In this document: positions 4,065 to 64,000 of the stretch, piece by piece
Numbering within the stretch: the first letter of the stretch is position 1
How the letters are laid out: each line of letters starts with the position of its first letter
Source: Isoetes taiwanensis
Taxonomy: Eukaryota > Streptophyta > Lycopodiopsida > Isoetales > Isoetaceae
Assembly: GCA_021234155.1 (NCBI GenBank)
Contig: JAJEKV010000001.1
Coordinates: 25,469,189-25,533,188 of the forward strand
Direction of reading: 5' to 3'
Length of the DNA stretch: 64,000 bases
The notes under the pieces: generated by a model
Database searches by the model: none
What the model was told of the DNA's origin: nothing
The model's input: only the letters and a program-made list of their open reading frames with translations
Made by a program: the position numbers and the translations under genes

Positions 4065-4079
4065 ACCAGCCCAATTTGA

Positions 4080-22921: not shown

Positions 22922-23169
22922 AAATGGTGCCACGGCGCCATTTGCCTTCTCTACAAGAGCATCACATGTTGAATTAAATATTCTTGCTTGTAAGCGAACA
23001 CAGATGCAACTTATTGAAGGCAAATGGTGCCACGACGCCATTAGACCATCAATAGGCCAACAAATGTCTTACAAAACTGCTAGACAAGTAGTAGCAGCTA
23101 CATGCCTGCTACTTTAATAAGACGGGCGTTGGACAAGCTGTGAAGGCAAGTGGCGCCATGGCGCCGTTT
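22922..23169. repeat. Palindrome family B cluster (three copies)
   Basis: Three AT-flanked palindromes with core ATGGYGCCAYGGCGCCAT lie at 22922-22943, 23022-23043 and 23148-23169. Each has one to three mismatches from perfect symmetry. The same family occurs at 50314-51127 and inside gene copy 2 at 59972-60156. Confidence 0.75.
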
Positions 23170-27915: not shown

Positions 27916-28339
27916 GCTCCACATCATTTTGTGGTCGACGGCCTTGCTATAGTTCTCAGGGATACCGGACAATGGTATCTCTGCGTTTTTTTTTAGTGTA
28001 TTTTAGTGATTTGAACCATTTGTTTCTTTCTAATTAACTTACTTGATGGTACCCATTGCCTAAAGGCTTTTGTCACTTGCTACCATGGTACCGTAATATT
28101 TCAATTCTCTTCTTGCCATCGTGTCCATGTTTTTCCCCTCAATCCATGCCTAATAATCGACCCCTAGAAACAATAATGCCTAGCATAAAACCATGGTCTA
28201 GAATTCTTGCATAGAATGCATGACTCAAATAGACCCAAAGATCCAAAACCAAGGCTATACCACGACAATGCTCTCAAGCTAGGCATTTCTTACAATATAA
28301 AACTTCCTTGCACTGTCTCGAAAACAAGTTGGGGACAAA

Positions 28340-32426: not shown

Positions 32427-32605
32427 AAATCGCGCTTGGCGCATTTCTAGTTTGGCTTTCTATCTCCTACTAGGTTAATCAAATCGCGCTAGGCGCGTTT
32501 CTAGTTTGGCCTTTCTATTTCATACTACTTTATACAAATTGCGCCAGACGCGTGTGAAGTAGATCTTTGAAAAAACACACTATAAAAAATGCGCCTGGCG
32601 CGTTT
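32427..32605. repeat. Palindrome family A cluster (four copies)
   Basis: Four AT-flanked palindromes of about 20 bases with core TCGCGCCAGGCGCGA or close variants start at 32427, 32481, 32536 and 32586, spaced by about 50-55 bases. The second Helitron is inserted 26 bases further on. The other family A copies lie beyond its far end, in and around gene copy 1. Confidence 0.8.
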
Positions 32606-32631
32606 TGAACTATTTTGAATCTTTAGAATTA

Positions 32632-42803: not shown

Positions 42804-42888
42804 AAAATTGCGCCAGGTGCGAGTTTGTATTGTATTCAAAAAATAGATGTACATTTCTTCTTCTGTGAAAATGCGCTAGGCGCGAGTT
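42804..42888. repeat. Palindrome family A (two copies)
   Basis: Copies start at about 42804 (aaaattgcgccaggtgcgag) and 42868 (aaaatgcgctaggcgcgag), upstream of gene copy 1. Removing the Helitron would place them within about 700 bases of the cluster at 32427-32605. Confidence 0.75.
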
Positions 42889-43606: not shown

Positions 43607-44073
43607 TTAAACCAAAACTCCAGTCTCATATTATCCGTACTTGCAGTTCTATGGTGTCTAGAGGATCTGGCAGCCGCGGCCGAGGCGCGGGTAGAGGTGG
43701 GTGACAGGCCAAAGCAAGCCTGGAGCTTGCTGAACAAGCAGAAAGCACAAATCCAGCTAGCGCCTCAGGTATTAATCGGTGTTTTCGTTCTGTATTTTAT
43801 TTCTGTGTCCTTCTTTTTGTTAGGTTTTTAGGATGTTTTTCCTTAATAGTAGAGTTATTATCCGATAAGAAGCATATGTCCTGTAATACTTGAGTTCATA
43901 TGTCCCAAAATGTATGCAAATATATGCAAAATGTTATGCATATATATATGTATGTGTTCATGTCGTTTTTCTTTCAATGTTGTATGTGCTGTTTTAATCG
44001 TTTATACTTAGTTGAACAGTATTGAGTAGAGCCTGGTGCTTGTTATAGTTTAAAGCGTTTTAAGATCATTTCT

Positions 44074-44308
44074 AAAGCGCGCCAAGCGCGTATTTGTTGC
44101 ATATTTTCCAAGCGGTAGGGTTAGTTTCTTATCTTTCGATTATGTATTGACAAACTACTTTTGATTCGGACAAAAAGTCCCTGGCGCAGTTTAATAAGTC
44201 AGTACGTTAGTTTCATTTCCTTTGAATCTATATTGACAAAACGCCCCTGGCGCAATTTAATAAATTTATAATCTCTCTTCAGTTTCAAAACGCGCCAAAC
44301 GCGTTTTT
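44074..44308. repeat. Family A palindromes in intron 1 of gene copy 1
   Basis: Copies at 44074-44095 and 44286-44308, a degraded one at about 44238 (acgcccctggcgca) and a half-copy near 44177, all inside the intron 43769-44378 (donor cag/gtatta, acceptor tttgcag). Confidence 0.75.
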
Positions 44309-44378
44309 GATTGCATACGTTGCAAGTTAGCATATATTTTCTCATTAAACGATTAACCCATGTGCTGTAATTTTGCAG

Positions 44379-45501
44379 GAACACAAAAAACAAGCAAAAG
44401 GAAAACCAAACACAGTGAGACCTCTTCAGCCCAGAACAAGCAAAGGACAGTTGAAGATGTTACTGTTACAGACCTGCAGCATGTATTGACGTTAGAAGAT
44501 ACATCTGGAATAATAAAGGCTCATATAGAACCTCCATGTCCAGAAGAAGATCTTATAGAGGGGTCAAAATGGTATGTCGAGATCTTCAAAACTGGTGGGA
44601 AGACAGACCTTATATTCATGTCTAGGGTAAGAGAGACTGATTAAATGAAAAAGCAGGGAATTCTTATCACATGCGAAGAACAGGATGATTCTTCTTGTTC
44701 AATGTTAGTTGAAGTGGGTCAAAAAAATAAGAAGAGCCTGAAGAAGATCAATCGATGCAGTTCTAGCTCTTTTAAAGAGACTACATTAAGATCAGACGAC
44801 AAGGCCAATTCCCTCTTCAAATTTGGCTGGATAGTTGGCGAGCCATTGACGCCTAAAAGAATATGCGAAGGGCTTTCAGCTGTTCGACGAGCCATCAGCA
44901 CGAGGCCCTCGGACAGTGTCTACCTACAGGCAGTGAAGGATAAGGAAGATGCTAGTTCTAGAGGCAGGGACACTACAGAAGTGACAGCAGGCCGTACAAG
45001 TGATGGTGACAAGGCCAGGCAGTTGGAGGCAATGAGCAAACTGAAAAAATGCTGACAAGTATCCACTGGGCCTGAACTTCACCCATCCAGTCCACGTGGA
45101 TAGGCTTTTCAGGTCCACTAAAGCCATTTATATCAGCAGAAGGTACGACAAGCAGCACTCCTTGGAGATAGCTAGCAGTATGATCGAAAATCCAGGGCAG
45201 GTGCCAATGCCTGCAGATGTAGTGCCTTACGATACGAGAACAAAGAAGGTAATCATGTGGAGCAAGCTGGAGGACTTCATCGAGAACCAAGACGTACATT
45301 TCATGATAATAGATGGCCAGCACTCAATTGAAGCCCAGAAGGTTCTGATTAAGAAGGCCGCGAGAATCTTGGAAATCAGCCGTTCTATAAAAGTCGTATT
45401 CTCGCCGAAGCTACCGGTTCTGGCGGCTCAACAACACCTGCCGAGCTAGCCGAAATAAGCGCACTCCTGAATGACCTGGGAAAAACTTTCCTATACAAAA
45501 G
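44379..45501 (+). pseudogene. Gene copy 1 exon 2: basic region and ParB-like domain
   Basis: The second half reads FTHPVHVDRLFRSTKAIYIS, then RRYDKQHSLEIASSMIENPG, VPMPADVVPYD and FMIIDGQHSIEAQKVL. The pattern (SRR.., a helix ending S-M-I-E-N-P, a P-x-x-V-V strand, then I-I-D-G-Q-H-S-x-x-A) follows the ParB/Spo0J N-terminal domain, where the last block is usually D-G-x-H-R-x-x-A; here Arg is Ser. Gene copy 2 shows the same domain with VNGNHSILAAQLV. The ParB helix-turn-helix part is not evident. Bacterial ParB-N domains bind CTP or act as nucleases; activity here cannot be judged. Confidence 0.55.
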
Positions 45502-45537
45502 GTAACTCTCTTCCCTCATTTTTCGTTTTCATATTTG

Positions 45538-46001
45538 CAAATCGTGCCAGGCGCGATTTCCTTACTTCAAATCGCGCCAGGTATGATGAAATTTACTGAA
45601 GAAAAGGCTTCCTAGAATGGTAGCCGTTTCTCTTCAAATAAGCAAATCGCGCCTGGCGCGATTTCATATTAGAATGCAAATCATGCCACGCGCGAGTTGT
45701 CTACTCGGAGGAGAAACGGCTCTCTTGAATAATAGTCGTTTCTCCTCAGAGTAGGCAAATCGCGCGTGGCGCGATTTGCATTCTAATATGAAACTGCGCC
45801 AGGCGCGATTTGTTTATTTGAAGAGAAACGGATACCATTCTAGGAAGCCTTTTCACTTCAGAGTAGGTAAATCGCGCCTGGCGCGATTTGCATTCCAATT
45901 TGAAATCGCGCCAGGCGCGATTTGCCTATTTGAGAAGATACAGCTAGCATTCAATGCAACCGTTTCTCTACAGAGTAGAGAAATCGCGCCTGGCACGATT
46001 T
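45538..46001. repeat. Family A palindrome array in intron 2 of gene copy 1
   Basis: At least nine copies start at 45538, 45578, 45644, 45678, 45758, 45791, 45869, 45903 and 45981. The best are perfect or nearly perfect (core TCGCGCCTGGCGCGA). They lie in pairs within a unit of about 100-110 bases that includes gtttctcttcaaata or its complement. The intron runs 45502-46060 (donor aaaag/gtaact, acceptor tttgcag). Confidence 0.85.
45598..45859. repeat. Foldback: 121-bp inverted arms in intron 2
   Basis: The left arm 45598-45718 and right arm 45737-45859 are inverted copies with few mismatches, separated by about 18 bases. Each arm contains two family A palindromes and the outer word aaggcttcctagaatggta. 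A transcript of this intron would fold into one long hairpin. Confidence 0.85.
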
Positions 46002-46060
46002 CAAACTGAAAGGATTGTTTGAATCCACGATTACTGGAGCTAACAAAGTATTTTTTGCAG

Positions 46061-48035
46061 TCCCTATATAGAGCAACTGCGGCATGCTCGAAACCAGTGG
46101 ATTGAACATGGGAAGCCAATTCCGATTAGACAAGGCCAGTCCAAAAGCGCTGAATTCAAGTTTCTAGAAAGGACACTTTGTCAGACGATAATACAGGACA
46201 AAACTAAGAGCATCAGATCAAAGAAAAAAAAAGGAGATGAAAAGGGAGATGCTTCCGAAGTTCAAACTGTACCCAAGGATGCCTGCAAAATAATTTTTTC
46301 TTCAGATCAGGTATGGGCGAAATGGAATGAATTCTGGGATGCCTACGTGGAGAAGTTGCCAGATTCACAAGACAGATTTCCTCCTGTTGACACATCAATT
46401 TTGATCTCCATACAACAGAGATGAGGAAGGCCCAGGGATTGGACGATGAAGAACTGATCTCAGTTCTGGACGGGTGCATCAGAAAGGAAATCCTTTAAGA
46501 AAACCTCAGCAACAAAGGACAGGGAATCATTTAAAGAGGCATGCGACCAACTTAAAAATATTAGAGTGCTCAAGAAGGTAGTTGGGGAGGAATTACAAAG
46601 GCTTACAGGGGACTGGTCGTTGTCGGAGCTAGGACTCATGCAAAAGTACAACGTCTCCAACGATGACCTGAAGAAGTATGTCTTTTGGTCCAAAGACTTT
46701 GTCAAGCATCAGAAGTTGAAGAACGTTGCAAACCTTAAAGGGATTCACACGAAAGTTGCATCCGACTTGAAAAGAAAAGTCGCGTTGGTGAAGCAGACCC
46801 CGGAGACGGAATCCACATTCTTTTATCACGTGTCCACTGGTTTCAAGTGTGCATTGCCAGATGTGGGTGCAGGTCCCCATGATATCACACTATTCGTGCT
46901 TGATAGCCGAGGCACCAGATGGTCGCTTGAAGATTATAATACGTTCTACAACATATGCAGTGGTTGCACGACGGAAATGAATTACACAATTGTCACTATA
47001 CATATGCCCCTCCGACATGTCCTATGCATATGCTCTAACTGCTGCAAATGACTTAGAATGCGTCAAAGTCATACGACAGGCGATCCTCATAGATGAAAAC
47101 AGGGACAGTGAATTTAGCACAGTAAGTAAAATTTCTCATGTGCTTATCATTATGATAGCTATGATGGATGATAAGGAATATGAAAGGCTTAAGGGAAAAC
47201 CAGATGGAGATAAACTTGCATGGCAGTGCTATCAGCTAGATGAACGCGTCCTGCGAAACGTCTTTTATCTGGAGCAAGAAGATAAGGGGAAGGGTATCAA
47301 AGACGTGGAACAGCTAGAGGAAGAAGAGGAAGAAGAGGAAGAAAACCAAGCCGACCCCGTTCTTGTGGAGCACATTAAGTATGAGCTTCTAACGTCACAT
47401 AGGGGGAAGCTAAACAAGAACGGGTTCTCTATGGCCCTTTCTCATTATCTCATTGAAGCATTTTGCCCATTGGGGACAACTTGCTAGGAGCTTCACGTTG
47501 GAGGTTACATCGGTAGGGAAGCTTTGAAGTTAGCAAGGAAATGCCAGAGCGTCGTCTCCGATGATCGAGCCAAAAATTTCTTGGATCTCTTCTTTGAGAA
47601 AGTGCTAGAGGAAACACCTAGGGGACCAATCGACAGTGCAAAAAACAAAGCTTCTACCTCTAAGGCCGAAATACCTGCAGATTTGGCTAAAGAACGGGAG
47701 GCTATGAGACAGCTCATGGTTGGCATCAGCATGGATGACAACGAAGAGCAGACAGTGGTCCCGGTACCTGTCGACATGCCTGTGAACATCCTTGACGGTG
47801 AAAATATAGAACAGGAAAAAAATAACAAGGATGATGATAATAACAAGGATGATGATGAAGGAGAGTCCAATTCTGAAAGCTCTAGCCAGGTTAGCTTAAA
47901 GAGTAATGAACTATCAAGCATAGTTCAAACTGTATAGATCTCAACTGATGTGGTTGGTGCTTCTAGCAGACCGGAGACAACTCAGAATAAGGATGCAACG
48001 GAAGAAGACACCACGGGGATTGATGAAGAAGAAAG
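46061..48035 (+). pseudogene. Gene copy 1 exon 3: middle domain and acidic linker
   Basis: Begins in phase with exon 2 (YIEQLRHARNQWIEHGKPIP). The block TLFVLDSRGTRWSLEDYNTF matches copy 2 (SLIVLDTRSLTPMWDQLTL), so the V-L-D-x-R string is a family trait. Further on, LIEAFCPLGTTC, a stop, then ELHVGGYIGREALKLARKCQ resemble the D-x-F-x-G-x-G-T-T...A...GR...x-E-x-D end of N6-type DNA methyltransferases. ParB-type domains fused to such methylases are common in phages and plasmids, which makes the idea plausible, but catalytic DPPY is not present. The linker (about 47300-48030) is rich in Glu/Asp. Confidence 0.45.
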
Positions 48036-48097
48036 GTATTATGACAATGCTCGTTTTCTTATGATATCCATGCATTTTACAAACGACAAGCATATAG

Positions 48098-48191
48098 AAA
48101 TCGGGTCTGGCGCGATTTAGAGTTTCCTTGACTTTCATATTTTTAGATTTTGTTGACTTGCATCATTAATGAAATCGCGCCTAGCGCGTTT
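48098..48191. repeat. Family A palindromes in intron 3 of gene copy 1
   Basis: Copies at 48098-48118 (atcgggtctggcgcgat, decayed) and 48172-48191 (aaatcgcgcctagcgcgttt), inside intron 48036-48237. Confidence 0.78.
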
Positions 48192-48237
48192 TCTTGTTCC
48201 ATTTCTTTCATCTCATACGTTATTGTTTGCATTACAG

Positions 48238-48871
48238 ACATGATTCGGCTTCCCCAAAAGTATTGGTCTTCGATTTGAATGGTGTGCTATGTAGAACGTT
48301 ACCTAAAGCAAATTTTGATAAGTCATGGTATGCGCAACAACCATTTGAGACGCGTACCAAATACGTTTACCCCCGCCCTTATCTAAAGGAGATGTTGGAC
48401 CAGGCCTTCAGTCTGTTTCATTGTGCAATTTGGTCATCTATGGAGCATAGAAATATACAGGAAGTTTTGAAAGTAGTGCCTGAGCTAAACAGAGATTGGG
48501 CGTCCATCTGGGATCAAAGCAAATGTGCTTCATTCACAAACCCTAAAGATCCTTCAGGTAAAAAGATATTTGTGAAATGCTTGCGCAACATGATAGATGC
48601 CCTAGGTGTTGAGGAAAAGGAAGGCATGATCATGGTTGATGATGACGCCCTAAAGTGTTGTTTCAATCAGCCACAGTCATTAAATCCGCCATCCTATCAT
48701 CCTGATATGTTCAAGGAAGATGACTTCCTACTTCGTTTTGTCAGTGTCTTGCAAGAAATAGCTTCAGGGAAAATGGTCGAAGAGATACAAACACTATACC
48801 CGCTACTTGATCGGACAGGGGAGATTGACAGGGACCTTGAGAAAATCGTTCTAGAAAGGGAACTCTTTTGA
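48238..48871 (+). pseudogene. Gene copy 1 exon 4: FCP1/NIF-like phosphatase domain
   Basis: An open exon of 210 codons. It carries KVLVFDLNGVLCRTL (motif I), YVYPRPYLKEMLDQAF, CAIWSSMEHRNIQEVL (motif II region, S/T after the strand), SGKKIFVKCLRNM (Lys motif) and GMIMVDDDALKCCFNQP (motif III). This is the order of FCP1/SCP-type HAD phosphatases. Motif I has D-L-N where active enzymes have D-x-D, so the general acid is replaced by Asn; copy 3 has the same change. Several plant FCP1-like proteins are known with D-L-N-G. The exon itself has no stops, but upstream exons do. Confidence 0.78.
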
Positions 48872-49133
48872 TATATATGTATACCGGAAATACACTTTCC
48901 ATAAAAGTTTTGAATATGAAATATACTTTACACCAAAGCTTTTGAATATATATTGTGTTCTTGTAGCAGCATTATTAGTTCTGTGTACGTATTGTATTAT
49001 TATATTATGTGTATGGTTTGCTATACTTGTAATAATTTGTATGTATATACCGTCAATAATTTAGGTGTGTATAAATAAATATGCATGAAATAGCCAAACC
49101 ATCGGCTTTGGCCTCCGCCTGCTTCTTGTTATT

Positions 49134-49355
49134 ATGGCACATTCTATTACCTGCAAGATGAACCATGAGGACCTCTGCAGGTGCCGCCAGCTAGAAATAG
49201 AACTTGAGGACTGGCTGACTGTCGTTGCTATGAATCCCGTCCGCTTCTATCCCGATCCCTTTGATGTTGTAATCCATCTTCTATGGAATCCAGAGCATGG
49301 TTTGTTCATGATTGAGAGGATCTCAGGAGCGCCTGTCGACGATGAATCGGAATAG
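49134..49355 (+). CDS. Small open frame, unknown 73-residue protein
   Basis: An ATG frame of 73 residues (MAHSITCKMNHEDLCRCRQL... ending APVDDESE) with Cys/His near the start and a mixed composition that looks more coding than its surroundings. It lies 260 bases after gene copy 1 on the same strand and just before a family A palindrome, so it may be a further exon or separate small gene of that locus. No family recognised. Confidence 0.3.
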   Translation: MAHSITCKMNHEDLCRCRQLEIELEDWLTVVAMNPVRFYPDPFDVVIHLLWNPEHGLFMIERISGAPVDDESE

Positions 49356-49400
49356 TTTTTGAAGTTTATGTTCTTTGATAATGCTATATTTATGCCAACA

Positions 49401-49421
49401 AAATCGCGCCACGCGCGATTT
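49401..49421. repeat. Family A palindrome
   Basis: A single near-perfect copy (core TCGCGCCACGCGCGA), the right-most member of family A in the window. Confidence 0.8.
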
Positions 49422-49714
49422 GAACCACGAAGATCTCTGTTTTGTGGCAACTTGCTTGCCGTTATTTATTCATAAAGCACTAAAATTCCAATCTATAGAT
49501 TTCGTTGTCGTCCGTGATAGTACGAAATAATAAGCAATTTCCTACTTTTTATATTGCCAACATTCTGTCATAATATGGGTGATTTGCATCGAATATTTGA
49601 ATGCCTTTCCATTTCAACACAAAATACATCTTTCTAGCCCAAAAATGAACTGCAAAAGTGTGGTTAATTCAATATAATGGTCAATAAAAGGCTTATACAC
49701 CGCGATTTTGGAAT

Positions 49715-51159
49715 AGACATAATCCCAATTTAATTGAATGATGGTTTTTACCTTCCAAAAGGCCCCAAAATGGCAAAAATTTGTACAATATGACGCCAGT
49801 TTTGTGGCCATTTTTGTACAATCTGTTCGTTGGGGGACAATTGTTGCTAGGGGTTATATTTTGAAAAGAACGACTCTTCATGGCAAGGATATGAATCCTA
49901 TGAATGTGGAAATAGAAGCATAGTTACAAACGGCCGTATCTGTCGTATGAAACAGAAAATATGGAGATTTAAAAAAATCCATATTAAAAACAAAATACGA
50001 TGAGGGGGAAATACGGGTACCAAATATGCCATTTTTTGTGTTAAATACGCCGTATACATCATTTTTCTTAATGTTTTTGTTAACAGAAAATCAGAGTACA
50101 GTAAAAAACCCACCAAACACGATTTTTCTAGTCCCTCTTCTATTCTCACTAAGTCAGCGACACAAAGCTGAAGCTGTTTGGAATCCAGTTGTTTTAGAAT
50201 CGGTGAGCTTTCTTCTTTCAGCCCCTTTTGATCTTTGGTTGCATTTGTTTATCTTGCTTTTTTCATTTTGCACTGCCTTCTTGACCGGAATGATTTCTAC
50301 TAAAATGATAGGCAAATGGCACTGTGGCGCCATTTAGGTCTTTCACGCTACCTATGGACAATAGCCGACCTACTGAACAATGCTCCAACCTATAAAGATA
50401 ATGCAAACGATAGAGACAATGTCTATGAACCAACCTAAAAGGCAACTCAATATCAAGTAAGTCTATTGCTGTTAATGAATGTGTTGTACAAGTTTTCTTT
50501 CATAATTTGTCTAATGAAGCACTCTGAATTCAGTTCTACTAATGTTGAAAAGAGTACGACACTTAAAATTTCATGATTAATACACACCCTAAAATGAGTA
50601 TCCAGTTTTTCCCCTGGTTGAATCCAAGAAAACCACAAATTTTATGCTGGTAGAGCTAAATTGCGCCATGGCACCATTTGAGAAATAATGGGCTGCCCTT
50701 GTTATGCATACCTGCTCATATTGACACATGTTTATCAATATGATCAAGAAGCACCTCATTCATTGATGTGGTGGTGCCTTTCTACTCTTATTGGGTTATA
50801 TGGCATCGTGTTGCAATTAGAGAATGTTAATGGGGTCCCTTGTTATACATACCTGCTCCTATTAACACATGTTTATCAATATGAGAAAGAATGCATAACA
50901 TAGGCATCTCAAAAATATTCTCCAAAAGAAAATGCTCGTGCCACTTTAAGCACAATCCTCCAAATAGCGCCATGGCGCCATTTGCTTCCGTTCCTGCCTA
51001 AATGGCTAACACGTGCATGTTGGACGTGTCACCTAATGCCATTTTGGATCAAATGGCACCATGGCGCCATTTCGTGGCTGATGTCAACCTGTTGGCGGGG
51101 GAGGTAAATGGCGCCATGGCACCTTTAAACCATCATTCAATTAAATTGGGATTATGTCT
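49715..51159. mobile_element. Possible foldback element with 30-bp inverted ends and family B palindromes
   Basis: 49715-49744 and 51130-51159 are exact inverted 30-mers (agacataatcccaatttaat...). Between them are five family B palindromes at 50314, 50658, 50962, 51051 and 51106, and a duplicated word set (acatacctgctc.tattaacacatgtttatcaatatga at about 50708 and 50850). A third copy of the 30-mer is at 23235, again next to family B palindromes. No coding sequence and no target duplication recognised. Confidence 0.5.
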
Positions 51160-51189
51160 TAATTTTGGGACAAATTTTATATTGCGTGT

Positions 51190-52100
51190 TTTTAATGATA
51201 TATTCAACTTCTCAAAGTCTTATGTGAAAAGCACAAAAATATAATACCATATTACTTTAAGGATAGACAACATTTCATAATATAGCATAATAGCACGCAA
51301 ATGATAGAAGAAAATGATGAAGAAATTTGAGTACGCCAGTGTTATTGTAGAAATATGCACAAAAATAAAATACACAACCGAGTTTCATAAAGTTGTGGAT
51401 CACCAAATAAAAAAAGGCACTCCATGTTACTTTATATAGAACTAGAACTTTTTTCCTCCACCTTCCACATTCCATCTTTTAGAACTACAATGTTTCTCCT
51501 CCACCTTTTGACCTACAAATCCTAATGTAGATCACTTCTTCACTATCCAAAGAGGAATTCATCCTAGCATATTTCTTCTTGTAAGAATCGTGCCATTACG
51601 ACCAAAGCTACGACACTGAAAACACAAAGGATTAGTCCTTCAAAATTCACATGGCAGAAGTTGGAAATGCAAGAAGATTCACATTTTCGAAGTTGGACTC
51701 ATAATAAGAAGCTGAACATGTAAGAAGATACACATTTTCGAATTGACACTACCCACATGAATTATGCTACCAAAATTGCTTTTGTATTCTAAACCAAGAA
51801 CTTTATGGTACCTAACATCGCGAATAAGCTTAGATATAGTCAATATAGCAAACGTAATGGTGGAATACAAAAGTGTTTAGTTTACCTTGAAAATGCGCTG
51901 AAACAGGTGGGTTTTCTCCAAAATAGGCTTACTTATAAACGCATCCCATCACCTAAAAAATTAGCCAAAAAAGACCAATTTATTAAAAGATCGGCTTAAA
52001 CAGAAGCTAGTTATCTAAAAAAAGTTGGATAAGAGCCAAAAAAGAGAGCACACTTGGCGAGGTTTTTCAAGCCCATTTACATGCTAGAACATGCTAAAAC
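51190..52100. other. No recognised gene
   Basis: AT-rich. A word of about 27 bases with agaagattcacattttcgaa is repeated at about 51670 and 51723. No coding homology. Confidence 0.5.
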
Positions 52101-52103
52101 TAA

Positions 52104-54086: not shown

Positions 54087-54089
54087 TAA

Positions 54090-55740
54090 AAGCAGAATAT
54101 AACAAACTTGCTTGCTCGTATTGCTCGTATGTAGAAGAAACGAAGATAAAGAAACAAGGAGAAACTTTGTTGCTATGAATCAGCTAATTAGATGCCCCAA
54201 ACTCATTCCTGACACATACATACCTTAGAAAATGAGCAAAGAAAACCTTCTAATCGGCTATTGCAACCTCAGCACGAAGAACAAGCTTTGAAGAAGAAGA
54301 AAAAAAGGAAGAAGAAGCAATCTCGGCAAGAAGAATAGATTTCTGGCACCATGGCAAGTGGAAAAGGAGTTGCTTAGGCCATTAGAAATGCTGATCAGAG
54401 TGTCCGGCACCGCATCCTTGCTGTAAAATGATGCTCCTGATCATGCTGGAGATATAAAAAATACAGTTAGATTCCCAATATCAGAGAACAACCATGTTGA
54501 ATTTATGTACACCATACCATGTATGGCTTACAATATGCTTTATATCCAAGAAAAGAAAGGGCGAAGCAAAACAAAATTTGGACAAATTTGTAGCCCATAA
54601 AAACCACAGGTTGTTCATGAAAAATTGGTCTATATAATCCATTTCAATATTGCGCATGGTTTGAAGAACCGTTTGAAGACACCCATGTTGGTTCTTCTTA
54701 CATATTTTTGCAAAAATAAGTGCAGAAAGAAGAACACAATGTGCACTTTTGCTAGAATACTCATTCATAGAAGACATAACATAACCCGACTATACTACAT
54801 GAAATACCTTGGTTTGCCCGGTTGAATTATTCTTATACACATCTTTCTGGATTGACCATTCCAAAAACTCCTTTGCCATCCTGGTGGATTCAAATCAATG
54901 GCTTTTAGAACGGGATTTTGTATCCTTGATCCAACATTAGTTGGCAATTTCGCAAATGGCTGTGCAATATACAGATCTTATTTCATCATCAAAACTGACA
55001 GAACCTTCTTCTCTTCCTCCGCCGCCAACTTGCTGCAATGATCATCTGAATTAACAAAATACTACAAGACAATAAGAACTAACGTGGGAATCTGCTTCGG
55101 CATGGCAAACAGTAAAAAACATTCTGCAATAAACATATTCTAACAAAAAAACTGCCACATGGCAAGGCGCCATGGGCTTATACAGCTAATGTAATTTAAG
55201 TTGCTTTTAGATAGAGCTCAGAGCTTTGTGAGGGTCAGCTTTTGCCAAGCTGGGTGGCGAATACCCAGAAACAACCAATATTTGGCTTTATTCGCTCTAG
55301 TCAACTCCTTTGTGAAGCCAATATTTGGATCCATTCGCTCTAGTCAACCAATATGCAGTTCATTTCTTATATCACTAGGCGGCCAACTACATGCAAGCAT
55401 TAACTTAGCCAACTTAAAGCAGGCTTTCTGGCTCATATTCAGGCGTTCTTTGAATCTGAACTGGGCGGTACCAGATTCTTAAGATTTCCTTTCAAACTGG
55501 AGGTTTCCAGGCATCTCATGTGCTTGAAAGCAAAGCAACCGTTTGCTAATAGTAATGGAAACCTGTGCTTAAAAAAAAAAGCGCAGAGCCTTTTTGCCGA
55601 CAATTTTCAGAACTTACAGATTTCGGTGAAAACGTAGAAAGTGTCAAAGAGCGGCTTCGGCAAACGTGGTGCCGCCTTCGAGAGGAAGAATGGTCCGTCC
55701 ATTACACGAGAGAATGGCGGGCACTCAAGTAGCCTATTAA
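54090..55740. other. Intergenic, no recognised gene
   Basis: AT-rich, with GA-rich runs at 54290-54330 and no coding homology. A weak half-palindrome aaggcgccatgg is at about 55163. Confidence 0.5.
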
Positions 55741-55741
55741 G

Positions 55742-55749
55742 TATAAAAG
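55742..55749 (+). promoter_or_regulatory. TATA box of the dirigent gene
   Basis: tataaaag lies 77 bases before the start codon, a normal distance for a plant core promoter with a short leader. Confidence 0.65.
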
Positions 55750-55818
55750 AAGTTTTTGCCCCAACCAAACAAAGTACCCATATATCCTAAACAAGCACAA
55801 TAGCCCATCAAGCAAAAA

Positions 55819-56313
55819 ATGCGCGCCCTTGTCTTTGTGCTCTTGTGTTCTTTCACACTCGCCATCCCAGCCACTAGAGTTTCCAACATAGCATTCTTCA
55901 TCCATGCCAAAGTTAGCAAGCCCAATGCTACCGCGGTCATTGTTGCTGGCCCAAATGGTGACACCACTAGCCTCGCTTTTGGCTCCGTTTATGTTGTTGA
56001 TGATGTGATTACAGCTGCACAATCCAATACCTCTGCCATAATTGGCAGAGCCAAAGGTATGGTGATGGCTACTGAGGAAAATCTCCAATATGCTACCTAT
56101 GTCTTCTCTGTTGTCCTTCAGAATGAAAAGTATAATGGTACCATAGCTTATCAAGGCACTGACCGTGTTGTTAAGGGTGTCAGTGAATTGGCTGTTGTTG
56201 GAGGCACTGGAGATTTCCGTCTAGTCACTGGCTATGCTAGTATCATTCATGTTGAGCTTAACCTGCCAGATTCTACCATTCTGATCAATTCTACCTTGTA
56301 TCACAAAATATGA
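55819..56313 (+). CDS. Dirigent protein
   Basis: A single open frame of 164 residues. A hydrophobic signal peptide (MRALVFVLLCSFTLAIPA) is followed directly by the dirigent domain: NIAFFIHAKVSKPNATAVIV, AFGSVYVVDDVITAAQS, IIGRAKGMVMATEE, YATYVFSVVLQNEKYNGTIA, ELAVVGGTGDFRLVTGYA. The order and the V-V-G-G-T-G-x-F-R block are diagnostic. Dirigent proteins act in the apoplast as eight-stranded barrel trimers that steer coupling of phenoxy radicals from monolignols or related phenols. The gene has no intron, a TATA box and an AATAAA signal at 56360, so it appears intact. The product or substrate cannot be told from sequence. It has TE remains on both sides. Confidence 0.9.
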   Translation: MRALVFVLLCSFTLAIPATRVSNIAFFIHAKVSKPNATAVIVAGPNGDTTSLAFGSVYVVDDVITAAQSNTSAIIGRAKGMVMATEENLQYATYVFSVVLQNEKYNGTIAYQGTDRVVKGVSELAVVGGTGDFRLVTGYASIIHVELNLPDSTILINSTLYHKI

Positions 56314-56359
56314 GTTAGAATATCTAAATCTCTAATTCGCTATATATGTCAAACATTAA

Positions 56360-56365
56360 AATAAA
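56360..56365 (+). terminator. Polyadenylation signal, dirigent gene
   Basis: AATAAA 47 bases after the dirigent stop codon. Confidence 0.55.
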
Positions 56366-56585
56366 ATTGTTCCATCCTATGAATATCTCCTAAAATACAT
56401 TGCAAACCTAGACTTTGGAATGTTGTTTTGATTTAGCTTATCACATCCTAATTTAAGAAAAAAATATTAACCAAAAAGTTGTAGAGCATTCTAGAGGAAA
56501 CTCATTCATATGGTGGTGACATCCACTAGCAATACAAGTGAATACCCAGCATAACTAGTAGTAGGGCAAGCTTGGGACAAAGTTT

Positions 56586-56609
56586 TCTTTCTTTCTTTCT
56601 TTCTTTCCA
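56586..56609. repeat. TTTC microsatellite
   Basis: Five to six tandem ctttct units. Confidence 0.85.
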
Positions 56610-57047
56610 TGTTTTATAGATAAACCTGTGTATTGTAGATTGTTTATGTATCCATCTTAAAACTGTGGTTTTTTGTCATAAGTCTTTTTAAATTTCCAGA
56701 ACATTGTTCCAATAAAGCATCCAACTTAAATCAACATGTTAAGATTTTGAGATCTTGCAGTATATGGTAGTGATGGATTCACAATTAAACGATAGGCAAA
56801 TTTATCAAGAGCATAAAGAGACGGATCTATCAAAGCAAGGTTCGACAGCCAAAAATGGCCGCTTCCAAATTTGGTTCAACAAAAGCACTTGCCGGATTAC
56901 TATTCCGCACAAGTCAATTGCGGCCGCCTCTTTTTCACCATTATACAATGATAAAATAGAAGGCTACATGCATGCATGTGATCATTGCACAACAAGTTCT
57001 AATGTACAATATATACAACAAATAATAGGATATGATATGAATTATCA

Positions 57048-58335
57048 TCATCCCCCTTTCATATCATATTTTGTACAAGACAACGATTTCCTCAACTGCA
57101 CTAACCTTTTTTCTGAGAAAGCTTTGGTTAGGAGATCTGCCAGCGAATGTTCTGTGCTAACATATTTCAACTGTATAAGATTTCTGTTCACAAGATCCTT
57201 GATATAATGCATATGAATTTCGATATGCTTAGACCTCTCATCCAAGACCAAATTTTTGCACATAGCGATGCAACTAAAGTTATCAAAATTAAGAACAAGG
57301 GGATGATCCATGGCTATGCCAAGTTCTTCTAATAGCCTTTTGCACCAAACCATTCCTTTTGCAGATAAAGTGGCTGCTGCATATTCGACTTCTGTTGTAG
57401 ACAAGGCAACTGAGGTTTGCTTCTTGCATTTCCATGAGATATGTGCTCCAGCAAGCATCATAATAAACCCTGATGTTGACTTTCTGCAATCTAAATCACC
57501 TGCCCAGTCAGAATCACAAAATGTTTTTAGTTCAAGGTCCTCTGAACAAAATAATATACCAACATGCTTTGTTCTCTGTAAATATCTGACAATCCGCTCA
57601 GCTGTTGCCTAATAAGCTTTACCTGGATTGTTGTTATATCTGATAAGCGTATTAACAGTAAATGCCACATCTAGTCTTGTGCAATTTGCCAAGTATATCA
57701 AGCAACCAACCAGTTCTCTCTATGGAACACATTCCATTTCTTTTATCGGTTCCTATAACTCTCCTGATATCTTCTGAAGTGGAGTATTGATGGCTTTGAA
57801 ATTGGCCATGTTAAACCTTTTTAGTATAGCATCAACGTATCTACCTTGAGGCAAGAAGAGCTTCTTGTTCTTCTTGTCTCTTTTTACTTCAATCCCAAGG
57901 CATCTTTGTAGCTCCCCCAGATCAATCATTCGAAACCTGCTTCTGAGAATATTTTTATACTTATCAAGTATGGTTAAACCTGTTAAAACCGTCACACAGT
58001 CATCAACATAAAGTGCAATAATACAATATTCCTTTCCTTGTCTGTATACATACAGGTTCCCATCACAATTAAGTTTAATAAAGCCTTGCTTTCTAAAATA
58101 AAAGTCCATATGGAAATACCATTGTCTAAGAGCTTGCTTTAGGCCGTATACTGCTCTCTTTAATTTCCACGCCTTGTTCTTCTCACTCTCAAAGCCTGGA
58201 GCTTCTTTCATGTAAATTTTTTCTTCTAATTTAGCATTGAAAAAAGCAGTAACATCCATGTGATGGATTTCTAAATTTTGTGCATTTGCTAATGCTAGTA
58301 AAATTCTAATACTATCATTTTGACTATAAGACGAG
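57048..58335 (-). mobile_element. Ty1/copia fragment: RT and RNase H
   Basis: The minus strand carries a copia RT (from about 58335, frame 58259-57753) with MDVTAFFNAKLEEKIYMKEA, AVYGLKQALRQWYFHM, IIALYVDDCVTVL (catalytic Y-V-D-D intact) and DLGELQRCLGIEV. Then comes RNase H (57461-57048) with ISWKCKKQTSVALSTTEVEY, HIEIHMHYIKDLV and SLADLLTKAF. The stretch between (57752-57462) is frameshifted. A purine-rich tract (aaagggggatgatgat on the minus strand, about 57062-57047) right after the stop fits the polypurine tract, so 3' LTR remains should lie below 57047, though I could not delimit them. Integrase and gag are missing: the element is cut at about 58335, next to gene copy 2. Confidence 0.85.
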
Positions 58336-58343
58336 CCTAGTGT

Positions 58344-61219
58344 ATGAAGATAATGAGGGTGAGCACTTCTTCTCGTTCGAGTTCAAAGGGTGATACTAGG
58401 AGAGAGGTCTATTTAGTGACAAAGGAGATGTCCGACAAAACAGAAGGAGTTTACCAGTCGGGCATCATCGTTAACATGAGAGCAACTCTCAATAGCGGGC
58501 GGGATGAGAATACAGAAGAAATGAAGCCAAACATATACTATATGGACTGGCGGTTCTATGATCCTACAATGAAGTCCGCGAGTATTTCGAATATCAGTAG
58601 CTCCTCCAAGAGACAGGGATGGGCTCTTTCCTCTTAAGAGCTTCGAAGAGGCAGACATAAAAGGCCCAGCTAAAATTTTAAGGGACTACAACATTCTTCA
58701 GATTCGAATGAACGAGTCTAAGAATTCTCCTTTTTAGTTGTCAAGGCCTTGAACTCGCAAAATGCTCCTCACTTCGTGTACACCAATTGGCTTCGAGCTC
58801 AGAGAAAGGGTAAGCCTCGTGCTGTCAAGGAGGCTATTGCAACTGAGAAGGAATCCTCTTCTGATACGGAAGAAGAGGTTAAAAAATCAGAAGCAAAAGT
58901 AGCAGAGAAACATCAAAAGGAAAAGAAGGACGAGGGGAAGGGAAGCAAGAAGGAAAGAAAAGGAAAGGGAGCAAGAAATCGAGCAAGAAGAAGAAGAAAG
59001 GAAGAGAAGGGATGGAAGGCAGTGTAAGGAAGGGGACGGAAGAGAAAGGAGAGGGAAAAAAAGAGAAAACAAAGAGGCGAAAAACATAGACCTGGCACAT
59101 CTGATGTCGAGGGCACTCCAAAGAAACAATGAAGACGAAGCCCTCGACCAAGTCCTATGCCTAGTCCTCCTGAAATTTCGGTGCCCTCTCCATAGCACGA
59201 GGAGTCCATTAGCAGTGGTCGTGGTGGTGGTGGTGCTTCGCATGCCATTGCAAGCACTGGAGAGAGGGATGGTACCTCGACGCCACAACTCCAGATATTT
59301 GCGCCATCCCAATTGATAAAATGGAGGATAGCCCATCACTTGTTAGAGGTGCCCCAAGGCCTCAAGGTCGAAAGGTCCGAGGAGAAAAAGATGGCCGAAA
59401 CTACTTTGAACAAGATATATGACCATCGTCATCTTTTTCCTCTTGGAATTACCTTCACCGAAAAAATTAATGTGTTCAATTTATACCAGGGCCCTCCAAA
59501 TTTGACTTCAAGGCCAAAAAATATGAAACACGTTAAGACTTTGCTAGAATCTTTCCAGAATGGCCCTCACCCAGTTCCAGTTGTTGTGAACCCATTCAAC
59601 CCCCTCACTAGGAATCTGGTTCCTTAGAAAACCTAAGACGATCTAATGGGGTTGCACTACTATATAGTGAATGGTAATCACTCGATACTTGCAGCGCAGT
59701 TGGTTTGCAGAAAACTAGGCACCACAAAGTCTCAAGAGCTGATGTCTAAAATCTATGCCGAGATGCCGGGTGTTGTCTAGAGATGTGAATGAGCAAGACT
59801 GCCTATAGCCCAGTTGTGAGGTGATTGGCGTTGCGGCAAAGACTATCTTCAAGGAGTCTTTCATGGACAAAATCACCCACCAGAGGCACCAGTACGCACT
59901 TTGTGGCAAGTCCGATCCATCTGATAGTGGGCAGACTCGATCGAAACCTTACAAGATATGTTTTTTATATCAAATGACGTCGCGGCGTCATTTCATATCA
60001 AATGGTGTTGGGGCGCCATTTCAGGTTGAGTAGGCTTGATTGTAGGTTAGGATTATGACGTTATACTCTTGAACTGTCGCGCGCCATTTGAAGTTTCCTA
60101 GGCTTCACATAATGAATTTTATGTTTTACCTTCGAAATGGGGTCACAGTGCCATTCGGATTCCATTACTAACACATGTCTTCTACATTCAGTGGTATCTG
60201 GCTCTGGCAGAAGTTACCATGCATGGTAACCAACCCAAAGACTTCAACTGGTGGGTCTTCATGCCAGAGGATATCTTTCAGCTGTTCCAATCTCTTTGAA
60301 GCTAATGAAAAACTGGCAAGCTGAAAGACAACAGAGACCAGACGATAGTATGTAATTGGGCCAAGGATAGTGACTACTTCTGTCAGACTTATCTGAGGTG
60401 CCTCAGAGGCATGCACTATGCGGACTGTAGGGTCTTATTCCAAGAAGTGCTTGACGAGAAGATATATGTAAAGATCTCTGGTGATTACACAGGTGATCAC
60501 TTCTTCAAGACGAGGGCTAAAACTCTTAAGACATTAGCATTCTTGAAGAAAGAAATATTTGAATATGTCAAGGATATTTGAATATGTCAAGGAGGAAGTT
60601 TACCTCCTTCGAAGACTTCTGTTCCTATGTGCCAGACTTTGACGGTGATAGCTTGAAGGGCATAGGGGCACTGCATAACAAATGGAACAATGATGGCATT
60701 TCCAGGGAGAGAATTTTTGGAAATATACCTTCAGCCTTGGCAAGGGTCATAAGAAATAAAGTTATGCAAAGGGATGACACTGAAGACTTCTGCTACGAGG
60801 TTGAGCTCACTGATAGGAGAGGCCAGATCAAATGCACTCCTATGCCAGCCTCTTTGATTGTTCTAGATACGAGAAGTCTAACTCCAATGTGGGACCAACT
60901 GACACTATCCAAGGTCTTTGACATTGCTGTCAAGAACACCACTATTGAATCTTTCTGGATAGTTTATTTTGCATGCCTAGAACACAATTTTGTTATCTCC
61001 TCAGTATTGGATAACCTGGACTCTAGGTCCATAGTATATATTGGCATGTATGAGGATGAATACAAGAATGCGGCACCAACAGGGGTGTTTGAACCGCATG
61101 CACTCGTCTATGCAACGAAGATCCTGTCTTCTGCCCTAACTGTTGTCGAAGAATTTGACTTGAGGTTTTCCTATGCCGATCACCCAGAGGAGATCCTGCT
61201 CACAACGAAGAAGAGGTAG
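58344..61219 (+). pseudogene. Gene copy 2: ParB-like / middle-domain protein
   Basis: Pieces in order: an N-terminal part (58344-58637, SGIIVNMRATLNSGRDENTE), a Lys/Glu-rich coil (58749-59027), a ParB-like domain (about 59313-59760) and a middle domain (60192-61219). The ParB-like part reads TSRPKNMKHVKTLLESFQNG, HPVPVVVNPFNP and YYIVNGNHSILAAQLV, closer to bacterial ParB-N than copy 1. The middle domain shares LIVLDTR with copy 1 (LFVLDSR). The frame breaks several times (TAG and TAA near 59625-59637, TAG near 59778, breaks near 60298 and 60580). The intron at about 59955-60191 has a normal acceptor (attcag) but its donor reads AAG/atatgt where GT is expected. No FCP1-like exon follows; copy 3 meets it tail to tail. 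A copia fragment abuts its start. Confidence 0.62.
59972..60156. repeat. Family B palindromes in the intron of gene copy 2
   Basis: Copies at 59972-59993 (atgacgtcgcggcgtcat), 60000-60021 (atggtgttggggcgccat) and 60135-60156 (decayed), with a half-copy near 60075. All lie between the coding blocks. Confidence 0.72.
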
Positions 61220-61533
61220 ATGGGGAGACTGAGGCTATGACTAAAAAATTCTTTCATATAAGTCGTATTTAATTAAAGTGGGACTCATTCCATTCCCACT
61301 TTTTTTTCGGAACCCTGTTAATTTACACGAAAAGGAGCACCCTGACCCGAAAACTATCCTTAATTCGAATTTTTGTTGTTATTGTGCATCCAAGCTTTCT
61401 TCCAGTTTTCCTTGGATAGCGAGTCGAGAACAAGAACAATGCAACTAAAACAAAGGAAATTCATTAAAGATTGAAACCAAAGCTCTAGTTGAAAAAGAAT
61501 TTTTATTAATAAATTGAATAGGTACAATGTATT
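61220..61533. other. Intergenic between convergent gene copies 2 and 3
   Basis: About 310 bases, non-coding, AT-rich; holds the 3' flanks of both convergent copies. Confidence 0.5.
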
Positions 61534-64000
61534 TTACATCGGACGCAGAGACCATGGCGGTCTTGCTGTCACTACAGTTACATCATCGTGGTAGGTGGTC
61601 CACCTTAGGGGATTAACTTGCGGCGCTTCTTCACGCCGACTGTAAGCCTTGGGGGCAACCTGAAGAGTGTGGAATGCCTCACGTGGAGGTGCCTCTGGAG
61701 CCACCGGCTGACCTGTCCACCCGACTTCTCCACTCTCCTCCCGCAGCTTTTCATCGAATATGCTCCTTCCCCAACCTCCGTGGATGTTATGCAATGCTTG
61801 CAAGATGCTTTGAGCTTTCTGGACTGTCTCTAATTTCTTCTCCTCTTCTTTATCCCGAGCGTGTGCATGGCGTCTGCATTCACGAGCAACATTATCCCAA
61901 AGGCCGGGCAAGAGTGTAGTGTGAGCGGGATCTGTGCCAGAACGGTATCTCTTCCGCCTTGAGCGGGATCTGTGCCGCCTGGAGCGGTCTCTGTGATGCC
62001 TGAACGGGATCTTTGCTGGTGTCGGATCTGTGCCTGAACCACCTGGAGCAAGGAGAGTCTATGATTAACAATTACGGTGCCATTAGTCAAAACGAAGAAA
62101 AGAATGGTGAAATCAAATTACAATAGAGAACATTCATTCCATATAACGGCATCCAATCACGCGAAAAGTAGTCTTTCTCGACTCGCGAGTCGAGAAAGGC
62201 CCGGAAAAGTCAAAGTACAATCATTCCCATTAGAATATGGTTGCATCCAATCACACATGGAAGCATACAAATGGTTGCGTCAATGAGACAAGCAGTGCCT
62301 TTCTTGACTCGCGAGTCGAGAAAGGCCCAGGAAACCCAATGTACAACCATTATCATAATAGATTATGGCTGCATCCAGTCACACAAACAAACATACAAAT
62401 GGTTTCATCAACAGGACAAGCATGTCTTTCTCGACTCGCGAGTCGAGAAAGCCAGCGAAAACTCAATATACATGTATATTCATTACAAAACATAGTACAT
62501 TTCTTCACGTTTCTTTACAATATTCACACAATTTGACTATCTGAAAGCGGAGGTCACTCTTCTTGATCACCAAAATATTTGTCGTCCATAGCTTTCATGA
62601 TCGCTACTCTGCTCGGATCGGGTTCCTTGAGGCTCGGATAGTTCGTAATCACATCGGCCACAAGAATGGCAAAGAGGGATTCCGCCAAGACAGGACAAAG
62701 TCCGAAAGACAGCCACTATCCGTCTCATACTCTTCTGGTCGATAAGTCTTAGCAATGATTGTATTTTGCGAGTTATGATAGCACTTGTAGGCGGAGTCAT
62801 CTATGATCAGCGTGTTGTGTTTGCCAAAGTCCGGGAATTGTTCATAAACCCTGTCCAGCCTTTTCACCATAATATGCTTCCCCTTTGTGATGGCTGGATC
62901 GAGGTCTGACACATGCTCGACCCTTTCGCTTCCCCAAACAAACTTGAACTTCAAAACTGGAAGGCCGAGAACACCAAGAACATTGACAATATTTTTCTTT
63001 GCCATACAAGACCATATGGCCACTTCGAATCCCCGTTCCAGGCACCATTTAACAATTTCCTTTGCTCTAGGCCTCGGATACACGATTTTATGCTCCGTTT
63101 TCGTCGGGATCTGCGAGGTGTTAAGCTCAGGGACGTCTTTATCGTGGTATACTGCAGCTAATACTCCATTGACGTCAAATATTACAAGCTTGGTTGGACC
63201 AGCTGGATCCCAGTTGGAGTTTGGCTCTGACCATATTTCCGGTTCATCGGGATCCATATGCGGGATCATTATTTTGTCAGCTCCTTTCTGGCTGCCCGCA
63301 ATGTCTTCTTGCTCTTGATTGTCTTTGGGGAGTGCATTGTCCTCCTCGCGACGTGAACCGCCACTAGATATTGTCAATGATCCGGAGTCGTTGACTTCGA
63401 TCTCCCTGAAATGATGAGAGATGTCAGATAGGAAACGAGTTTTCTCGACTCGCGAGTCGAGAATGGAAAAAAAAGTTAGTCCAGAAAGGTTTCTCGACTC
63501 GCGAGTCGAGAAACACCGAGAGAGCAAAGTGAACTCACCTCAATCTCAGATTCTCAAGAATTTGTTCCGCAGCATTCTGGTCTAAACCTTCGACATTCTC
63601 TTCTCCGTCATGTTTCTCTCCTTCGCTCTCAGGTTTGTCTTCGTCATCATCGTCCTTACTGCTTCCATTTGTCTTCCTCCCTTTGAAATGCTCATGAAGC
63701 AGATCCAGGTATGACTGAATGGTTTCAACCATGTCCTTATTTCCAACCACGGATATAGGTTTCATTCCATAAAGCATAGCCCCCTGAGAGAACAGGCCAT
63801 TCATGTACCACTCGCATACAATTTGATCTTCCTCGACCAAGCTGGTTATGAAGTACTTGATAACTCTTGGCCGGATAGGAATTCTATGTATAGGACCTGT
63901 CGCACCATCATTGCTGACTTTGTCCATCGATGGCACATCCTCCATAAATCTGCCGCCCTTCCAGGGTTCCATCTGCTCTTGAGAAATCATGAACCTGTCG
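61534..64000 (-). CDS. Gene copy 3 (partial): linker, FCP1-like domain and RS-rich tail
   Basis: Minus strand, open at the window end. Exon a (64000-63539) reads SLVEEDQIVCEWYMNGLFSQ, then GMKPISVVGNKDMVETIQSY, matching the end of the middle domain in copy 1, and an acidic linker. Intron 63538-63406 has GTGAG/TTCAG borders and phases fit. Exon b (63405 to about 62570) holds the FCP1-like domain: KLVIFDVNGVLAAVYHDKD, YPRPRAKEIVKWCLERGFEV, AIWSCMAKKNIVNVLGVL, KHIMVKRLDRVYEQFP and TLIIDDSAYKCYHN. Motif I is D-V-N, not D-x-D. Exon c (62042-61534) encodes RSRRHRSRSRRKRYRS, LWDNVARECRRHAHARDKEE and a Pro/Ala tail. Near 62700 the frame may shift by one base; otherwise it is open. It is the least damaged copy and may be expressed. 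Confidence 0.6.
62173..62451. repeat. Tandem 126-bp repeats each with a family C palindrome
   Basis: Palindromes (core CTCGACTCGCGAGTCGAG, 26 bases with flanks) at 62173-62198, 62299-62325 (one mismatch) and 62426-62451. The sequence between them is itself repeated: ttatggctgcatcca.tcacac, acatacaaatggtt and gacaagca recur with a 126-127 base period. The array lies in the intron between exons b and c of gene copy 3. Confidence 0.85.
63442..63513. repeat. Two family C palindromes in a 133-bp intron of gene copy 3
   Basis: Perfect copies at 63442-63463 and 63490-63513 occupy about a third of the intron 63406-63538. Confidence 0.88.

Follow-up and report, generated by a model that had tools for sequence, protein, structure and literature searches.

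Why do three related genes in one stretch of quillwort DNA carry different sets of short palindromes in their non-coding sequence? The question arises in a 64,000-nucleotide stretch of the Isoetes taiwanensis genome (the window), for which a preliminary description had proposed that each gene copy (copies 1, 2 and 3) holds its own private family of intronic palindromes (A, B and C, respectively).

Palindromes sort by gene type in the window

As exact 15-18-mers understate the arrays, sites were collected as near-matches on both strands of the window and the next 6 kb (a stretch labelled L025), allowing ≤4 mismatches of 21 for family A, ≤5 of 22 for family B and ≤5 of 24 for family C. The palindromes are CpG-rich perfect dyads of 21-26 bp. 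Of the 19 family A sites found, 16 fall in the copy 1 span and the remaining three lie at 32.4-32.6 kb, away from recognised gene copies; all 16 sites of family C fell within the copy 3 span. Family B yielded 10 sites, two of them in copy 2 and the other eight outside any recognised gene copy (five at 50.3-51.1 kb and three at 22.9-23.15 kb). By the near-match search, the copy 3 span is free of families A and B, and copies 1 and 2 are free of family C; 10 shuffled controls per family gave no site at all. The proposed sorting by gene type is therefore borne out, with one dominant palindrome family at each locus examined. All 34 sites of the three gene spans are non-coding in gene models that rely solely on open frames and splice-like boundaries judged by eye.

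Copy 1 (43651..48871, + strand) is a decayed gene of the A lineage, recognised by open frames and Pfam, with internal stops and frame changes. It comprises a DndB/ParB-like exon (~45045-45503), a middle region (~46060-47937) and a NIF/FCP1-like exon (~48242-48868), with limits set by eye. Family A sites, listed like all palindromes in the window without strand, lie upstream of the gene (42805 and 42868; 42805..42888), in intron 1 (44074, 44238 and 44287; 44074..44307), in the intron after the DndB/ParB-like exon as an array of eight within nested inverted duplications (45539..46001), in the intron before the NIF exon (48098 and 48172; 48098..48192) and downstream (49401..49421). The flanks of A sites at 44.0-44.3 kb, 48.1 kb and 49.4 kb are unrelated to each other.

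Copy 2 (58341..61219, + strand), a decayed gene of the B lineage, was delimited by tblastn matches to its relative L010. Its intron (~59955-60189) contains two degraded family B sites (59972 and 60000; 59972..60021) with 5 mismatches each, and the 18-mer originally quoted for family B does not occur in the window. The five-site B array (50314..51127) lies outside recognised gene copies, and the remaining three sites (22922..23169) adjoin the DUF7869 gene of a related element (23472..26422, − strand; PF25273, E 6.2e-36 over 23472-24929), which has relatives in L009, L066 and L067.

Copy 3 and its element (61260..64000, − strand) extend by homology ~9 kb beyond the window (L025, L066). Two family C sites (63441..63513) occupy an intron of 127 bp (63411-63537) that precedes the NIF exon (~62652-63410), seven lie in the large clear intron at L025:1196-1985, and others flank the gene at L025:5347-5530. 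Three more sit in a 126-127-bp tandem repeat (62174..62450) downstream of the last clear coding sequence. This cluster may be intronic or downstream non-coding DNA; the description of all clear sites within gene spans as intronic holds for their non-coding position and may be too narrow for this cluster.

The cores had also been said to differ completely. Family C is indeed unrelated to A and B, whereas the A and B half-sites (AAATCGCGCC and AAATGGCGCC, respectively) differ at a single base; the dyad centre is 1 base in A and 2 bases in B. Family D (28337-28791), also considered, proved to be a dispersed element of its own and not part of this set. Neither Rfam nor tRNA searches had any match in the window.

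Genes carried by the elements

The copy 3 element, which is the best covered, combines a DUF7869 gene, also present in its C1046 relative, with a divergently transcribed gene that has a weakly DndB/ParB-like exon and a NIF/FCP1-like exon. The NIF exon matches PF03031 in both copy 1 (61.5 bits) and copy 3 (39.3 bits; cut-off 21.8). NIF/FCP1-like (HAD) phosphatases use the catalytic motif DxDx(T/V); the corresponding residues are DLNGV in copy 1 and DVNGV in copy 3, an exchange of the second D for N that departs from the catalytic motif. In copy 2 and L010 a NIF exon was not detected, and in the B lineage the DndB/ParB-like and NIF domains may therefore occur apart.

For the DndB/ParB-like exon, copy 1 gave a sub-threshold match to PF14072 DndB (E 0.0061, 16.1 bits; cut-off 29.1) and copy 3 none. 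Structure prediction of this region returned a poor model (pLDDT 55.3), with which Foldseek found no match at E ≤ 0.001, and PDB sequence searches gave nothing below E 1. A DndB/ParB fold of the exon product is weakly suggested, as a possible rather than an established assignment. Across the frames scanned with Pfam (part of the element's frames), NIF, DUF7869 and at most a weak DndB were detected, and no VANC-type or MULE domain. Outside relatives amounted to five proteins for the DUF7869 frame and a single protein for each of the two exons: P0002 (50% identity) for the DndB/ParB-like exon and a match at E 4.7e-4 for the NIF exon. We regard the DUF7869 protein as a candidate transposase; our literature search found no paper linking DUF7869 with transposition.

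Palindromes mark lineages across the genome

To gain a view beyond the window, the DNA following the DndB/ParB-like exon was examined in 20 relatives each of copy 3 (64-95% protein identity) and copy 1. Family C was present in 19 of 20 copy 3 relatives, with no A or B site (Fisher 3e-10), and family A in 17 of 20 copy 1 relatives, with no C site and a single B-like site with 5 mismatches (Fisher 3e-8). Of 20 control stretches of one contig, 15 could be read (146,857 bases); neither A nor C occurred in any of them, and B occurred in one, which holds a copy 2 relative. Equal density in unrelated DNA, which would have spoken against sorting, was not seen in these control bases. Counting 14-mers by loci, with no palindrome assumed, placed palindrome 14-mers at the top in the C lineage (19 of 20 loci); in the A lineage, a palindrome 14-mer (15 of 20 loci) tied with one exon 14-mer. 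Four loci found via the C pattern (L001-L004) have no DndB/ParB-like exon in 3 kb, yet retain the C array and the element terminus described below.

Evidence for the B lineage, the least tested of the three, shows a like pattern in fewer loci. L010, met by chance, has the matching intron with 4 B sites (1-2 mismatches each). On the contigs covered by the listing of exact B sites, three of six listed copy 2 places have such a site within 5 kb (chance 7e-6 if sites are independent) and the other three have none nearby. Exact matches across the whole 1.658-Gb assembly numbered 3851 for the C core and 957 for the B site, with none in reversed-sequence controls.

The palindrome marks a lineage and not a single gene copy: each of the lineages A and C has a CpG-rich dyad of its own, which is arrayed in introns and in non-coding DNA on either side of the genes and is maintained throughout the lineage. 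The notion of families private to a gene copy has to be given up, and the suggestion that each gene arrived with its own set survives at the level of the lineage.

A high-copy family with a shared terminus

The three genes represent three lineages, now diverged, of a transposon-like family with many copies. At least 104, at least 150 and at least 150 genomic places were scored for the three lineages, the copy 2 lineage being one of those with at least 150. An 11.7-kb span at copy 3 is common to C907 and C1046, matching at 88-91% in three blocks (4.3, 1.0 and 4.7 kb), and the C-lineage element has a shared right-hand terminus (61260..61305, − strand), the point at which homology ends in the window, in L001-L004 (two instances in L004) and in L068. 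To the left, C907/C1046 homology ends at window-equivalent 72969, which does not fix the left end of the element because the DUF7869 match continues in the C1046 copy. No terminal inverted repeat was found with the right terminus as query. Judged by copy number, shared span and shared terminus, the gene family is multicopy and probably mobile.

Array structure and sequence constraint

The arrays are tandem or inverted duplications. Spacing was 59-62 bp in 41 of 78 intervals for family C, and 34 bp (19 of 64 intervals) or 78-79 bp (14 of 64) for family A. For family B, 6 of 22 intervals under 400 bp measured 59 bp among 50 sites listed, while the intronic sites of L010 are 29 bp apart, not 59. 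Tandem duplication alone could suffice to explain array uniformity.

Over five pairs of relatives, differences affected 41 of 618 palindrome positions (39 gapped ones excluded) versus 289 of 2857 other positions, which include some exon; one pair (L050/L052) was reversed, with palindromes differing more (4 of 105 vs 17 of 630). This is consistent with mild constraint on the palindrome sites. The same C core recurs down to 64% protein identity, and on both observations the expectation of a palindrome evolving faster than its gene's coding sequence fails. CpG observed/expected in sites was 2.5 and 2.3 vs 0.6 for the genome. Arm variation is mostly one-sided and consists chiefly of transitions; pairing-preserving changes on both sides reach at most 5 of 97 sites in family C and 3 of 81 in family A at any single base pair, and L061 and L062 carry a variant with both-side changes that keep pairing.

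Possible function of the arrays

The reading that we consider somewhat probable is that the palindromes are predicted cis-acting recognition sites, arranged in arrays for an element-encoded protein, similar to VANDAL/VANC and with different proteins. The dyads would be read by a dimeric DNA-binding protein of the same lineage, presumably the product of the DndB/ParB-like gene and possibly the DUF7869 protein. This protein would act on its own lineage only, and the arrays look like self-recognition tags for the protein that each lineage encodes. Its most likely role would be VANC-like local anti-silencing, in which repressive chromatin or CpG methylation is removed from the element or kept from forming there, with transposase recruitment ranking second. 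New specificities could arise via symmetric half-site changes or an altered centre length, as between A and B, and could spread through arrays by duplication and conversion. A more specific and rather doubtful version follows ParB-parS logic: a DndB/ParB-like protein may load on its lineage's CpG-rich intronic palindromes and mark element chromatin. In at least two lineages this protein would be joined to a CTD-phosphatase-like domain, and symmetric dyad switches (half-site, centre length) would prevent cross-activation between lineages.

Functionless minisatellites, in which a palindrome-bearing unit was amplified in each lineage founder and homogenised by slippage or conversion, would account for the duplicated structure of the arrays and for a constraint at aligned sites that is mild and absent in one of five pairs. 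They fit less well with a dyad that recurs despite diverging surroundings and varying spacing, with similar-sized dyads arrayed across lineages and at several separate introns or flanks of one gene, and with the CpG retained in sites; we hold this explanation to be fairly unlikely. Slightly less credit goes to internal or subterminal transposase-binding repeats, with the dyads read by the DUF7869 protein for excision instead of anti-silencing. A DUF7869 gene present both at copy 3 and in the related element on C1046, together with the one C cluster located between the element's two genes, would suit such a role. However, most copy 3 sites are intronic and kilobases from the known terminus, and the transposase role of DUF7869 is itself conjectural, with no supporting paper found.

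Hairpins in pre-mRNA that steer splicing or feed small RNAs are very unlikely. Many sites are intronic on a strand that could fold on itself, and the few pairing-preserving changes in C and A sites and in L061/L062 point in the same direction, but the predominance of one-sided transitions and the sites upstream and downstream of genes do not. Even more improbable are short palindromes inserting into introns independently, like the mobile GC clusters of yeast mitochondria. Although unrelated flanks within one gene and sites outside gene copies are compatible with such insertion, the families hardly mix between lineages, and the readable controls of the one contig show no sign of it in unrelated DNA (A and C absent from 15 of 15, B from 14 of 15).

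Relation to known systems

Yeast mitochondrial GC clusters share with the quillwort sites the GC-rich palindromes in AT-rich surroundings, whereas the latter are nuclear and tied to one element family. En/Spm-type subterminal repeats, which are bound by a transposon protein, are likewise repeated, family-specific sites inside an element, but the quillwort sites are also intronic and mid-element. In bacterial partition, ParB-parS places clusters of palindromic sites near the gene, which resembles a possible DndB/ParB-like region with palindrome clusters close by; unlike that system, the quillwort genes gave no ParB Pfam match in the frames scanned and belong to a plant element with introns. VANDAL/VANC systems are defined by a MULE transposase and a VANC protein, in contrast to the NIF, DUF7869 and weak DndB of the quillwort frames scanned.

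The arrays had been thought to have no described counterpart, but the VANDALs of Arabidopsis are a system of this general kind (PMC5735166, PMC10398659). There, a multicopy element carries an accessory gene for the anti-silencing protein VANC, and the target motifs of 8-9 bases lie in intronic, intergenic and terminal non-coding DNA and differ between related lineages (PMC5735166, PMC10398659); the lineage-specific motifs are tandemly repeated within introns and elsewhere in the non-coding sequence (PMC5735166). The quillwort family is alike in being multicopy with a shared terminus, as known from sequence, in its motif arrays in non-coding regions including introns, and in lineages with different motifs (A vs C; B on less data). 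It differs in having 21-26-bp perfect dyads instead of short motifs. Lineage-specific anti-silencing motifs as such are already known from Arabidopsis VANDALs, and our literature search, judged mostly by title and abstract opening, recognised no paper describing the present arrays. If the proposed reading is true, they would represent an independent second example, from a lycophyte and built on different proteins, with symmetric sites and half-sites comparable between lineages, and would suggest self-recognising motif arrays as a general transposon strategy. Hundreds of copies with known protein and site would then provide a natural data set for co-evolving DNA-binding specificity.

Palindrome families follow element lineages

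Counted with mismatches allowed on both strands of the window and the next 6 kb (L025), the three families of CpG-rich palindromes (A, B and C) separate according to gene. Sixteen family A sites fall in the span of copy 1 (two upstream; 3, 8 and 2 across the three introns; one downstream) and three elsewhere, while every one of the 16 family C sites lies in copy 3 (three downstream, two in the NIF intron, seven in the large intron, four upstream); copy 2 holds two degraded family B sites, with eight elsewhere, and gene models were drawn by eye throughout. Shuffled sequence gave no sites in any of ten trials for each family. The B string quoted in the preliminary description does not occur in exact form in the window.

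Twenty relatives each of copies 3 and 1 were chosen from hit lists across the identity range, blind to their DNA, and about 1-1.3 kb past the exon was fetched. Family C was present in 19 of the 20 copy-3 relatives, the lone exception (L040) showing degraded C-like sites by eye, and families A and B in none of them. Family A was present in 17 of the 20 copy-1 relatives, the exceptions being L056, which is exon sequence only, and L063 and L064, with degraded A-like sites (by eye); family C occurred in none of the 20 and family B as a single site with five mismatches (L055). The preliminary description, which held that the palindromes sort by gene, had caught a real pattern that is wider than proposed: the families mark transposon-like lineages, not single copies. 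Two copy-1 relatives of 77 and 73% identity (L061:317-337 and L062:332-352) carry a perfect variant palindrome, AAAACGCGCC-T-GGCGCGTTTT, altered symmetrically in both arms, possibly a shift in specificity. Among the copy-2 places listed, three of six lay <5 kb from exact B sites and three did not, on contigs covered by the B listing; the case for B-lineage specificity, drawn from the copy-2 relative L010 and these three places, is thinner.

Controls were twenty 10-kb stretches spaced evenly over the first 25 Mb of contig C907, on which the window occupies 25469189-25533188; five were entirely N and one partly, and the sample is small and from a single contig. Families A and C were absent from the 15 readable stretches (146,857 bases), and family B occurred only in L010, adjoining the copy-2 relative. 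Genome-wide exact counts (1,658,258,908 bases, 1110 contigs) gave 3851 C cores and 957 B, with none for the reversed-sequence controls; the first 50 listed sites of C and of B were clustered. Distant from copy 1, a small A-like cluster spaced at about 50-55 bases lies at 32427-32606, and the A-array intron of copy 1 contains a large inverted duplication (45601-45854; 121-base arms, 92% complementary).

Gene relationships and domains

Between copies 1 and 3, identity is 37% over 101 residues in the DndB/ParB-like exon, 22% over 307 in the middle region and 30% over 175 in the NIF/FCP1-like exon. Copy 2 gave no direct match to either; L010, a relative met by chance, matches copy 2 and also short stretches of the same exons of copies 3 and 1 (55 and 49 residues, E about 1e-5). 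Pfam NIF is clear in copies 1 and 3; copy 2 and L010 yielded no NIF match. The NIF catalytic motif is DxDx(T/V); in copies 1 and 3, N replaces its second acidic residue. The DndB/ParB-like region contains a DGQHS-type motif, which we take to point to a ParB-like identity. This identity is only a lead, because the Pfam DndB score of copy 1 falls short of the cut-off, copy 3 has no DndB match, and the structural model, itself poor, gave no fold match. Also in the window are Ty3-like gag-pol remnants (587-5739), a dirigent-like gene (55804-56313) and, by eye, copia-like reverse transcriptase remnants (57048-58382).

Transposon-like elements

On sequence grounds, copies 1-3 are best placed in multicopy transposon-like elements. 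Their exons have at least 150 (copy 1, 3589 first-look candidates), 152 (copy 2, 150 scored of 1444) and 109 matches (copy 3, 104 scored of 5529), all lower bounds from the scored fraction of candidates. The surroundings of copy 3 match a place on contig C1046 over an 11.7-kb span, made up of three blocks (4.3, 1.0 and 4.7 kb; 88-91% identity) separated by tandem repeats, a comparison that omits the exon on the C1046 side. The span stops at a right terminus common to the window, the C1046 copy and the fetched stretches L001-L004, L004 having two, inverted.

The copy-3 element also carries a DUF7869 gene on the opposite strand (E 1.2e-22), whose product is a candidate transposase. By domain match, a second DUF7869 gene (PF25273) lies at 23472-26422 on the minus strand; such genes are multicopy (also L009, L066 and L067), and one copy is divergent to the DndB/ParB-like gene within the same element. 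A perfect 33-base inverted repeat, which may be an element end, flanks the B array (49715-49747 and 51127-51159) and recurs at DUF7869 copy edges (23232-23264; L009:3082-3114). Upstream of the genes, L025:4116-5273 (C lineage) and L010:650-997 (B lineage) have a tandem repeat in common despite their differing palindromes.

Palindromes as putative recognition sites

The arrays, in introns and flanks of a multicopy element, consist of lineage-specific dyads that persist across divergence. A dimeric protein encoded by the element would read these dyads; that the palindromes are its recognition sites seems to us somewhat probable, a confidence slightly lowered because copy 2 showed no NIF exon. 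Anti-silencing would be the likeliest use of the predicted binding, followed by transposition. Neutral minisatellites, the main alternative, appear less likely.

Of 78 intervals between C sites, 41 measure 59-62 bp; of 64 between A sites, 33 measure 34 or 78-79 bp. Arm changes are mainly one-sided transitions, and for no base pair do two-sided changes that preserve pairing exceed 5 of the 97 C sites or 3 of the 81 A sites. In C palindromes the observed/expected CpG ratio is 2.5 and in their spacers 0.63; the figures for A are 2.3 and 1.02, and the control stretches stand at 0.59. For the 97 C and 81 A sites, core-aligned, information per position is 1.7 and 1.6 bits within the core, figures inflated because sites were selected by core similarity, and about 0.3 in the flanks. 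Of the two fairer tests, a k-mer count by loci comes out for the palindromes, which score in 19 of the 20 C-lineage loci and in 15 of the 20 A-lineage loci, where one exon 14-mer does equally well; pairwise comparison of relatives is mildly in their favour, with one of five pairs against.

For recognition by an element-encoded protein, VANC is a close precedent: the targets of these TE-encoded proteins form tandem repeats within introns and elsewhere in non-coding DNA, and they vary among related TEs (PMC5735166; PMC10398659). The quillwort elements would work like this described kind of system, yet are not members of the VANC family.

A hairpin-like element at 28337-28791 has TCGCGGCGGCC-GGCCGCCGCGA palindromes, unrelated to A, B or C, at either end, and matches two control stretches (L013:5730-5778; L012:9877-9920).
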